Positions 47,866 through 50,215 of a stretch of 64,000 nt of DNA are shown here, piece after piece. The position numbers and the translations under genes are program-made. The notes under the pieces were generated by a model. That model worked only from the letters and a program-made list of their open reading frames with translations, searched no databases and was not told where the DNA came from. This DNA comes from Tritonibacter mobilis (GTDB lineage Bacteria > Pseudomonadota > Alphaproteobacteria > Rhodobacterales > Rhodobacteraceae), in the NCBI RefSeq assembly GCF_001681715.1, contig NZ_LNWY01000016.1, positions 62,001 through 126,000 on the forward strand, given 5' to 3'. Position 1 is the stretch's first letter, and every line of letters begins with the position of its first letter.

Positions 47866-48423
47866 ATGCGCGCAACTTTTGCAATTGCTCTGACCCTCGC
47901 AACCGCATCTCCTGCCTTCGCTGCTGGCGGTGGCTGGAACCTCGGCAACACCGACTTTGTTGTTGTTCTCGCATTCCTGCTGTTCATTGGCATCCTGCTC
48001 GCTGCCAAAGTGCCGTCTTTGATCGGCAAGCAGCTCGACAATCGCGCGGACAGCATCAAGTCGGAACTGGAAGAAGCCCGCGCGCTGCGCGAAGAGGCCC
48101 AGACCCTTCTGGCCTCCTACGAGCGCAAGCAGCAGGACGTCCAGGCCCAAGCCGAGCGCATCGTCGCCAACGCCCGTGACGAGGCCGCTGCTGCGGCTGA
48201 GCAGGCGAAGGCAGATCTCGCGGCTTCCATCGCGCGCCGTCTGGCCGCTGCGGAAGAGCAGATTTCCTCTGCAGAAGCCTCTGCAGTGAAAGAGGTCCGT
48301 GACCGCGCCATCACCATTGCTGTCGAAGTTGCCGATCAGGTGATTTCCAAGCAAATGTCCGCAGCCGATGCAAACAAGCTGATCGACGCGGCCATTCAGG
48401 ACGTGGACGCCAAGCTGCACTAA
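47866..48423 (+). CDS. atpF: ATP synthase F0 subunit b
   Basis: Stalk subunit of 185 residues. N-terminal leader RATFAIALTLATASPAFAAGG looks like a signal sequence and is followed by the membrane helix FVVVLAFLLFIGILLAAKVP and a coiled coil with repeated Ala/Glu. It ends the F0 operon before a strong terminator. Confidence 0.93.
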   Translation: MRATFAIALTLATASPAFAAGGGWNLGNTDFVVVLAFLLFIGILLAAKVPSLIGKQLDNRADSIKSELEEARALREEAQTLLASYERKQQDVQAQAERIVANARDEAAAAAEQAKADLAASIARRLAAAEEQISSAEASAVKEVRDRAITIAVEVADQVISKQMSAADANKLIDAAIQDVDAKLH

Positions 48424-48451: not shown

Positions 48452-48480
48452 AAAGCCCCGGCCTAACGGCTGGGGCTTTT
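48452..48480 (+). terminator. Terminator of the atp F0 operon
   Basis: Stem AAAGCCCCGGCC / GGCTGGGGCTTT with a four-base loop and T-run, 28 bases past the atpF stop. Confidence 0.88.
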
Positions 48481-48535: not shown

Positions 48536-48557
48536 TTCATGAATTTTTCATGACAAC
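48536..48557. promoter_or_regulatory. Pho-box-like direct repeat
   Basis: TTCATGA at 48536-48542 and 48547-48553 with an 11-base period. On the minus strand the first half reads TTGTCAT, close to the PhoB half-site CTGTCAT. The gene behind it resembles PstB, so phosphate control is possible but not proven. Confidence 0.35.
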
Positions 48558-48629
48558 TGCAATCGGTGGGATGATCCGTTAACCCTGTCGTGCGAAGAGC
48601 GAGGGCATCCCGATAAGAACAGGGTCCTG

Positions 48630-49451
48630 ATGTTTCATTCATTGCCGCTCCATCACAAGACATCTCAGCTGACAAAAGATCAGGTGACGCTTCCTGCGGC
48701 GATCAGCGTGCGAGAGTTTGGTCTTAAGGTTGGCGGCCGGGATGTGCTTTGCGATGTCACACTAGATATTCGCAAGGGAGAGGTTCTGGGGCTGATTGGA
48801 CGCACAGGAGCGGGTAAGTCCGTCTTGATGCGGGCCATGTGCCGGCTGTTGCAACACGAGCGTCAGCTGGCGACGACTGGCAGCCTGACATATGGCGACA
48901 CAGAGGTGTTCTCACCCCAGTGTGATCTGCCTGCGCTGCGGCGCAAGGTGGCCTATATCCCTGAGACACCAAACCCGTTCCCGCTGTCCGTTTGGGATAA
49001 TATCTCCTATGGTCTCAAACTGAACCAGATCGCGACCAGCCGCCATGAGGTGGCTGAGGCCGTAGAGACGGCATTGCGGCGATGTATGCTCTGGGATCAT
49101 GTGAAGGATGTCCTGCACAAACGACGCGGCGTGGATCTGCCGCGCCACCAGCAACGCCTGCTGTGCATCGCGCGCAGCATCTCGGTGCAACCCGAGGTCC
49201 TGTTGCTGGATCGCTCTACCGGGTCGATTGATCAGGGCGAAGGCGAGGCCCTTTGTGCGCTCTCAGTGGATCTGAAAAAAGATCATGCGGTTGTGGCTGT
49301 GTCTGCAACCTTGGCGGAAACCGCGCAAATTGCTGATCGTGTGGCGTATTTTGAACAGGGCCGCCTCGTTGAGGTGGACAGCGCCGAGATGATCTTTACC
49401 GCCGCACTCAAGGCTGAAACCCGTGGGTTTATCGACAGCACATCCGGCTAG
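48630..49451 (+). CDS. PstB-like ABC ATPase with degraded active site
   Basis: ABC ATPase of 273 residues that aligns end to end with phosphate transporter ATPase PstB. Walker A GRTGAGKS (57-64) is intact. The LSGGQ signature reads LPRHQ (170-174), Walker B LLLD is followed by Arg195 where the catalytic Glu should be, the switch His is Ala226, and the Q-loop Gln is Glu112. ATP hydrolysis should be lost or very weak while ATP binding may remain. The frame is open and codon use normal, so it is not simple decay. No pst permease genes are adjacent. Likely a regulatory or structural pseudo-ATPase. Confidence 0.85.
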   Translation: MFHSLPLHHKTSQLTKDQVTLPAAISVREFGLKVGGRDVLCDVTLDIRKGEVLGLIGRTGAGKSVLMRAMCRLLQHERQLATTGSLTYGDTEVFSPQCDLPALRRKVAYIPETPNPFPLSVWDNISYGLKLNQIATSRHEVAEAVETALRRCMLWDHVKDVLHKRRGVDLPRHQQRLLCIARSISVQPEVLLLDRSTGSIDQGEGEALCALSVDLKKDHAVVAVSATLAETAQIADRVAYFEQGRLVEVDSAEMIFTAALKAETRGFIDSTSG

Positions 49452-50215
49452 CGATTGCGTTCATGTTCCAGTCGCTGCGCTGCAATCCGGGCATTTCGAT
49501 CTGCCCGTATTTGTTCGTCGAGCGCCTGTTTCACATAGTCCATGTGGGTTTCGACAGCCGTTCGCGCAGCATGGGCGTCGCGGGCCTGCAATGCGGCGTT
49601 GATGGCGCGGTGTTGTTCCAGCAGCGCCTCATAAGTGGTGTGCTGGCCGAACATGATACGGCGGTTGTAGAACACGCCTTTGCGCAGCATGTCGAACATG
49701 GAGCGCATCATATGCAAGAGTACGACATTATGGCTGGCTTCCAGAATGGCGGAATGGAATTGCGCGTCTAGCTCCGCAGCGGCCTCTGAAATACTGGGAT
49801 CTCCCGCTTCTTCCATGCGGTCAAAAATCTCCTGAATGACGCCGAGGTCTGCGTCAGAGCCAAATTTTGCCGCGCGTTCAGCGGCCATACCTTCGAGGTC
49901 ACGGCGAAACGACAGGTAGTCAAAGACCGCCTCATCGTCGCTGGCGAAAAGCTGGATCAGCGCAGGCGAGAAGGCGGACCCAAGGACATCGGCCACAAAC
50001 ACACCGGACCCCGCGCGGCTGGAGAGCAATCCACGATCCTGCAATTCTGCCAGCGCATCGCGCAAGGAGGGGCGGGAGACCCCCAGTCGCTCGGCCAGTT
50101 CGCGTTCGGAGGGCAAGCGTTCCCCGGGGCGTAGAATGCCGCGCAGGATGAGTTTTTCGATTTGGCGTACCACTGCGGTGGAGAGCTTTTCCGGCTGCAC
50201 TTTCTGGAACGGCAT
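49448..50215 (-). CDS. GntR/FadR-family regulator
   Basis: Regulator of 255 residues: VQPEKLSTAVVRQIEKLILRGILRPGERLPSERELAERLGVSRPSLRDALAELQDRGLLSSRAGSGVFV is the winged helix, followed by a helical FCD effector domain with metal-binding His/Asp residues (FHSAILEASHN, HRAINAALQARDAHAAR). Similar to LldR and PdhR, which sense 2-oxo or hydroxy acids. It is divergent from the aminotransferase gene, with a palindrome between them. Confidence 0.9.
   Translation of the reverse strand: MPFQKVQPEKLSTAVVRQIEKLILRGILRPGERLPSERELAERLGVSRPSLRDALAELQDRGLLSSRAGSGVFVADVLGSAFSPALIQLFASDDEAVFDYLSFRRDLEGMAAERAAKFGSDADLGVIQEIFDRMEEAGDPSISEAAAELDAQFHSAILEASHNVVLLHMMRSMFDMLRKGVFYNRRIMFGQHTTYEALLEQHRAINAALQARDAHAARTAVETHMDYVKQALDEQIRADRNARIAAQRLEHERNR

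Follow-up and report, generated by a model that had tools for sequence, protein, structure and literature searches.

In this study we describe a gene of Tritonibacter mobilis whose product resembles PstB, the ATPase of the phosphate importer PstSCAB, and is changed at the residues that PstB uses for ATP hydrolysis. The gene lies in a 64-kb stretch of contig NZ_LNWY01000016.1 (positions 62,001 to 126,000), which as a whole we call the window, between atpF and a gene for a GntR-type regulator. It is an open reading frame (ORF) of 273 codons on the plus strand, with an ATG at 48630, a stop at 49451 and an open frame between them. The start is supported by the N-terminus MF[HD][SP]xP, which is common to all eight sequences of the nearest clade. 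An original prediction, made from the sequence, had assigned positions 48536-49451 to the feature; the gene accounts for 48630-49451 of this span, and 48536-48629 is upstream DNA and not coding.

Relationship to PstB

Among the NCBIfam families the best match of the product is PstB (TIGR00972), collinear over residues 25-270 at 202 bits, which is below the cut-off of 343.2; the host's canonical PstB scores 408.8 bits on the same model. The ATPase domain of ATP-binding cassette (ABC) proteins (PF00005) is recognised above its gathering cut-off (73.2 bits vs 25). Of the PDB sequences, that of E. coli PstB matches best (E 8.4e-43), and the AlphaFold2 model, an intact ABC ATPase with E. coli PstB again as its best match, has the PstB fold. 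The collinearity with PstB that had been predicted is borne out by the family match. By its score the product falls outside the TIGR00972 equivalog; it also lacks the complete catalytic motifs expected there (Q-loop, LSGGQ, Glu, His), and its gene is not linked to pstS, pstC or pstA. No homologue of PstS, PstC, PstA or PhoU was found in the window (tblastn, E <= 1e-5). The host genome encodes PhoR, PstS, PstC, PstA, PstB, PhoU and PhoB, with the pst genes on another contig, and its own PstB is 32% identical to the gene product.

Catalytic and presumed docking residues

In the copy of the window Walker A is intact, and the Q-loop Gln, the signature, the catalytic Glu and the switch His are replaced (Table 1), all as had been predicted. 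Beyond that prediction, Asp194 of Walker B has been retained, and at the A-loop position, which stacks on adenine (PMC7756269), Tyr has become Val34.

The gene is present in 14 of 18 genomes of the genus, always in the slot between atpF and the GntR gene. We compared these degenerate copies with canonical PstBs and with intact PstB paralogues that lie outside pst loci, of the RFGWVAQKPNPF type, for which we coined the name active orphans. Residue counts are based on full frames for the 14 degenerate copies and on 9 canonical rows, one of them cut at the N-terminus. Gly57, Gly62 and Lys63 of Walker A, Ser or Thr at position 64 and the Walker B Asp194 are found in all 14 degenerate copies, and so is the core of the presumed docking segment NPFPxSIWDN (PF and WDN: Pro116, Phe117, Trp122, Asp123, Asn124). 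The signature Ser and the switch His each remain in one copy; the catalytic Glu is kept in four, with Arg in nine and Gln in one, and the Q-loop position is Gln in ten and Glu in four. The A-loop Tyr, the Q-loop Gln, the Ser and last Gly of the signature, the Glu and the His do not vary among the 26 active orphans or in the canonical rows. Hence the claim that every hydrolysis residue has been replaced is true of the window copy and does not describe a state fixed among its relatives; since Glu survives in 4 of 14 copies and His in 1, and Glu stands at the Q-loop in 4, the hydrolysis residues look as if they had been lost stepwise. That the protein is an ordinary working ATPase with unusual catalytic residues is hardly credible: although the P-loop and the Walker B Asp are intact, the signature, Glu, His and, in this copy, the Q-loop Gln are changed, and no substitute has become fixed across the clade.

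Sixty-two columns do not vary across 26 active and 8 canonical sequences, and 18 of these are still invariant in 13 degenerate ones. Column entropy was analysed for 13 degenerate rows (G008 was left out because its start was cut by the gene caller) and 8 canonical rows, and the percentiles are descriptive, as neighbouring columns and related rows are not independent. Among the degenerate copies the helix after the signature stands at the 1st percentile, the docking segment (residues 113-128) at the 4th and a C-terminal segment (residues 246-257) at the 9th; the D-loop, H-loop and signature stand at the 68th, 80th and 82nd. Trp122 and Asp123 vary less among the degenerate copies than among the active orphans, where they occur in 10 and 7 of 26 sequences.

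Two further positions distinguish the degenerate copies from the active orphans. Arg176 (49155-49157) is found in 14/14 against Gln in 26/26, and Asp250 (49377-49379) in 14/14 against Gly in 26/26, Asp250 also being present in 5 of 9 canonical PstBs. By sequence, both are candidate positions for a new function.

Selection on the degenerate copies

Codon models gave a ratio of non-synonymous to synonymous substitution rates (dN/dS, omega) of 0.086 for eight sequences of clade A and of 0.099 for four sequences of clade C, G004 and G008 being in neither set. A value of omega=1 was rejected in both (twice the log-likelihood difference, 2dlnL, 895 and 302), in a test that held topology and kappa=2.5 fixed and with synonymous sites near saturation in most pairs. 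Random decay, which we considered as a candidate, is rejected by these values of about 0.09. Neighbouring genes of the same species gave an omega of 0.031-0.105 (seven fits). Pairwise dN/dS was 0.053-0.225 in eight pairs, mostly above the neighbours in the same pair, and the least saturated pair, G007-G009, had a ratio of 0.078 (dS 0.66, dN 0.052). Because the fitted codon tree has a length of 9.5 substitutions per codon for the gene and of 2.0-5.9 for the neighbouring genes, omega may be underestimated, and neutrality is still far off. The frames are open in all 14 copies; one flagged stop (L034) is the last codon of that gene. The degenerate protein is therefore fast-evolving but constrained, and it shows the purifying selection despite lost catalytic residues that marks a pseudoenzyme. 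Random variation of the changed residues in relatives had been named beforehand as a sign of decay. The lost residues do vary; the protein as a whole is under purifying selection. We consider it highly probable that the gene encodes a pseudo-ATPase kept by selection.

It might also be that we see a slowly dying gene, lost in some species and under residual constraint in others. The slot is empty in G010, holds a different ORF in G013 and has other genes ahead of the GntR gene in G016, and neither the gene nor its GntR neighbour was detected in G015 at the thresholds used; fast evolution and variable catalytic residues would fit as well. The low omega with rejection of omega=1, the range of the eight pairs, the 14 open frames and two conserved blocks upstream of the gene (see below) make this explanation improbable.

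Relatives and origin

A search with the single protein as query returned only distant relatives (23-28% identical); the nearest relatives of the degenerate copies are the active orphans, at 36-42% identity. In a survey of 394 genomes of the family 371 had a profile match at E <= 1e-62, which is so many because the profile also finds canonical PstB. Fifteen high-scoring loci were newly read (10 active orphans, 5 canonical) in addition to 14 active orphans from other genera, and the listed matches of ~257 bits and below were assumed to be canonical PstB. The resulting count of genera with active orphans outside the genus, 24 of the 392 surveyed in the family, is therefore a lower bound. Among the 29 high-scoring loci read (24 active orphans, 5 canonical) there was no degenerate form outside the genus. 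In the 24 active orphans from other genera the catalytic motifs are intact except for the first signature Gly in two: L128 (G233) and L130 (G359) are otherwise intact orphans with the signature LSLGQ or LSVGQ. Possibly these sequences represent early steps of degeneration outside the genus. Within the genus true PstB was found in 18/18 genomes, and G001 and G003 carry an additional intact orphan paralogue beside a gyrB-like gene (gyrB was recognised by eye).

In G095, a genome of another genus, an active orphan (L070) occupies the same atpF/GntR slot as the degenerate copies. The active-orphan loci include, besides L070, L063, L064, L069, L071, L072 and L095-L104. Several active orphans have the ATP synthase operon no more than about 10 kb away, and the orphan of L069 stands beside a sugar-kinase-like gene. 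Searches around the active orphans covered Pst and PhoU homologues and homologues of window genes, and the loci tested for Pst and PhoU neighbours were 16 active orphans, 14 from other genera and 2 from the genus. By tblastn no homologue of PstS, PstC, PstA or PhoU was found around these 16 or around 13 degenerate copies; all four were found at 4/4 canonical pst loci as a positive control.

Thirteen degenerate copies form one clade with 100/100 support in a tree built without the truncated sequences of G008 and G112, rooted at its midpoint and with an open backbone on the active-orphan side. Common descent with the active orphans is favoured by the shared slot in L070 and the shared upstream repeat, and the degenerate clade probably arose from an intact paralogue of the orphan kind present elsewhere in the family.

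The upstream region

Upstream of the gene, at 48536-48552, lies a direct repeat, TTCATG-N5-TTCATG. The window has no other exact copy of it; when up to 2 mismatches are allowed, 5 copies are found vs 6.3 expected by chance. The conserved element TGAAnTTTTTnTGA, to which the repeat belongs, is found upstream of 12 of the 14 degenerate copies (shuffle P <= 0.05; not in G003 and G014) and of 11 of 16 active orphans (P <= 0.01), the shuffles of upstream regions being first-order Markov resamplings and not exact dinucleotide shuffles. Some of these active orphans stand in stretches without atp genes. The element thus travels with the gene family. It was not found in G010, which has lost the gene.

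A Pho-box-like repeat had been predicted upstream. The repeat is real and conserved; as a Pho box on the gene's strand it is weak. Its score there is 12 of 18 (shuffle P 0.18), against 13 of 18 for the opposite strand (P 0.04), and across the degenerate copies a score at P <= 0.05 was obtained in 0/14 on the gene's strand and in 6/14 on the opposite strand (7/14 with separate shuffles). The Pho boxes of the host's own pstS and phnG face their genes and the repeat here faces away, so activation of the gene by PhoB is unsupported. Repression by PhoB through the repeat is possible, as is control by another regulator of the same type.

A relaxed form of TGAAnTTTTTnTGA occurs three times in the 4.7-Mb genome vs 0 for a reversed control. 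The first occurrence is the one at 48536. The second (L137:3005-3019) lies between the divergent genes phnF and phnG and, read toward phnG, is CTGTCACGAAACCTTCAC (15 of 18 as a Pho box). The third (L138:2777-2791) lies upstream of a gene for a PAS hybrid histidine kinase and is oriented like the one at 48536. The element may mark a small common regulon, and the phn site hints at a connection to phosphate. A generic Pho-box search of the same genome was uninformative (6 matches vs 2 for a control).

The second conserved block, TTAAC, resembles a CtrA half-site. It is present upstream of 11 of the 14 degenerate copies, vs a shuffle mean of 2.3 and maximum of 7. Only 1 of 16 active orphans has it, and it may therefore have been gained along with degeneration.

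Possible function

As the parts for hydrolysis are gone and the P-loop and the presumed docking face are kept, the degenerate protein is probably a brake or a signalling part and not a motor. We propose tentatively, as something that might well turn out otherwise, that it is a stand-alone pseudo-ATPase which docks on PstC/PstA in place of one PstB and acts as a brake on phosphate uptake and Pho induction. The docking core, present in 14/14 copies, and PstB, present in 18/18 genomes, make it plausible that the protein pairs with PstB and acts in phosphate uptake. The degenerate subunit would still dock on the coupling helices of PstC/PstA. Since one chain then lacks the signature as well as Glu and His, such a mixed dimer would have a defect in each of its two composite ATP sites, and the mixed transporter would not turn over, would stay open and would report 'phosphate enough' to PhoR, a state that has been proposed for the E. 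coli mutant Q160K. Closing uses both signatures, of which one is gone here, and we therefore favour the open, 'replete' state. The outcome would be damped uptake and damped Pho induction, and PhoB, if it binds the inverted repeat, would more likely repress the brake in starvation than activate it. According to PMC5775613, this PstB mutant, changed in the signature, is stable, transport-dead and signals a phosphate-replete state. Another possibility is an asymmetric yet working heterodimer with PstB, in which uptake is tuned and not blocked. Asymmetric dimers are common in exporters (PMC7756269), and PMC11466899 includes a B. subtilis Pst modelled with two different PstB chains. However, the asymmetric type keeps one whole site, with the Glu/His and the signature defects on opposite chains; here both defects are on one chain, so that both sites of a mixed dimer are hit, and by sequence neither a dimer with PstB nor a self-dimer has one intact composite site. 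We have set the classical asymmetric heterodimer aside for this reason and regard a working heterodimer as quite improbable.

A serious if somewhat unlikely alternative is that the pseudo-ATPase is real and works outside Pst, the orphan PstB line having served another membrane or soluble partner and the degenerate copies being a nucleotide-sensing or scaffold subunit of that complex. The stretches covered around the 16 active orphans and the 14 degenerate copies contain no homologue of PstS, PstC, PstA or PhoU, and all are present at the 4 canonical loci. The clade has fixed residues of its own (R176, and D250, which it shares with part of the canonical PstBs), the C-terminal segment 246-257 is well conserved, and ABC ATPases outside transporters exist, for example PhnK on C-P lyase. 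Against a place outside Pst stand the best sequence and fold matches, which are both to PstB, and the conserved core of the NPFPxS segment; moreover, no partner gene specific to the degenerate protein was recognised.

Several observations weigh against a brake on PstSCAB. The gene is missing from 4 of the 18 genomes of the genus, and it evolves much faster than its neighbours: the G011 copy is 56% identical to that of the window, whereas atpF, GntR and SMC are 97%, 94% and 96% identical. An aromatic A-loop residue remains in 4 of the 14 degenerate copies and is lost in 10, and Walker A as a whole segment is merely moderately conserved (28th percentile, 13 degenerate copies), so that nucleotide binding may be weak. 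A pseudo-ATPase that binds ATP had been predicted; the sequences agree with a pseudo-ATPase, and binding is less certain than was stated because the adenine-stacking aromatic is gone from most copies. The contact of residues 113-128 with the permease is presumed from general knowledge of ABC proteins. A contact between the Q-loop and the transmembrane domain is described in PMC7756269, consistent with such a role of the segment. The repeat at 48536 faces away from the gene. With no Pst or PhoU homologue near the active orphans or the degenerate copies, these loci name no partner for the ancestor. The sign of any signal is uncertain, as E. coli PstB E179Q, in which the Glu alone is lost, is transport-dead and signals starvation (PMC5775613), the opposite of Q160K. 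The PstB mutants in the papers covered include none with Arg at the catalytic-Glu position. The predicted fold, the residues, the selection, the clade and the genomic context are observed; docking, the PstB partner, the signal and its regulation are inferred, and so is the phosphate role. A stronger version of the brake, which we think unlikely, is that the genus evolved a dedicated dead subunit, a natural counterpart of Q160K within PstSCAB that holds PhoR in the replete state and is repressed by PhoB in starvation.

Compared with PstB of PstSCAB (TIGR00972), the protein is collinear, is predicted to fold alike and has the P-loop, the Asp of Walker B and the NPFPxS core in common; it is unlike in lacking the signature, the catalytic Glu, the switch His and the A-loop Tyr and in being encoded outside the pst operon. 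It shares with the active orphans the nearest kinship, the atpF/GntR slot in L070 and the upstream repeat (11/16), but the orphans keep their catalytic motifs. The E. coli mutants Q160K and E179Q (PMC5775613) resemble it in that signature or Glu is changed, the protein is stable, transport is dead and the Pho signal is fixed; they are, however, laboratory point mutants of the only PstB, whereas here a separate natural gene stands beside an intact PstB. Degenerate-site ABC transporters have changes in Glu, His and signature too and may bind ATP without hydrolysis (PMC7756269); unlike the present protein, which carries all defects on one stand-alone subunit, they keep one whole site and have their defects on opposite nucleotide-binding domains (NBDs). 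Exporters are well known to have degenerate ATP sites (PMC7756269), such sites also occur in fused importer NBDs such as RbsA and NupO (PMC11466899), and shared stand-alone NBDs are known (PMC7658222). In a limited literature we found no report of a separate importer-type ATPase that lacks signature and Glu/His and is kept by selection beside an intact paralogue, and no published report of this gene. How Pst signals phosphate to PhoR is a matter of continuing debate, and the conformational model considered here was derived from laboratory mutants of PstB. A natural, selection-kept PstB that does not hydrolyse ATP would provide an independent test of that model and would be an unusual throttle on an importer. 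The gene also shows which parts of an importer ATPase are still selected after hydrolysis is lost, namely the Lys of the P-loop, the Asp of Walker B and the face presumed to dock on the membrane.

Flanking genes and minor features

Table 1. Features of the degenerate PstB paralogue and its flanks, in window coordinates
Feature	Positions	Strand	Basis
Pseudo-ATPase paralogue of PstB, 273 amino acids	48630-49451	+	ORF, family matches, predicted fold
A-loop position, Val34 (Tyr in 26/26 active orphans)	48729-48731	+	
Walker A GRTGAGKS, residues 57-64, kept	48798-48821	+	
Q-loop position, Glu112	48963-48965	+	
Segment TPNPFPLSVWDNISYG, residues 113-128, presumed to dock on the permease; one of the most conserved segments in the clade	48966-49013	+	
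Degenerate signature LPRHQ, residues 170-174	49137-49151	+	
Walker B Asp194 (kept) and Arg195 replacing the catalytic Glu	49209-49214	+	
Switch position, Ala226 replacing His	49305-49307	+	
Direct repeat TTCATG-N5-TTCATG, 11-bp period, conserved element TGAAnTTTTTnTGA, Pho-box-like mainly on the minus strand	48536-48553	+	
TTAAC block	48579-48583	+	
atpF (F0F1 subunit B), conserved left-hand neighbour, context	47866-48423	+	
Terminator-like GC hairpin and T run after atpF, between the ATP synthase operon and the gene	48453-48480	+	read directly
GntR-type regulator, convergent, conserved right-hand neighbour, context and not a proven part	49448-50215	-	

Upstream of the gene stand the genes for the Fo part of ATP synthase. 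NCBIfam confirmed subunits A, C, B' and B; atpI, ahead of the others, has no NCBIfam match and is named from its position. The hairpin scan is weak, with 3 found in 1.3 kb vs 1.0 expected, and similar hairpins are visible in the upstream sequences of relatives. On the other side the gene stands tail to tail with the GntR-type regulator, which is followed by an aminotransferase-like gene and then smc; the regulator and the aminotransferase-like gene score below the cut-offs of named NCBIfam equivalogs.

A search for remnants of the gene where it is missing from its slot (G010, G013, G016) gave no convincing match. In G010 (L092:7298-7393) the gene and the upstream repeat are both gone and atpF and the GntR gene, 95% and 89% identical to those of the window, are 96 bp apart. 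The slot of G013 (L093:7781-8311) holds an ORF of 176 amino acids that is unrelated to the gene and lies on the strand opposite to atpF.
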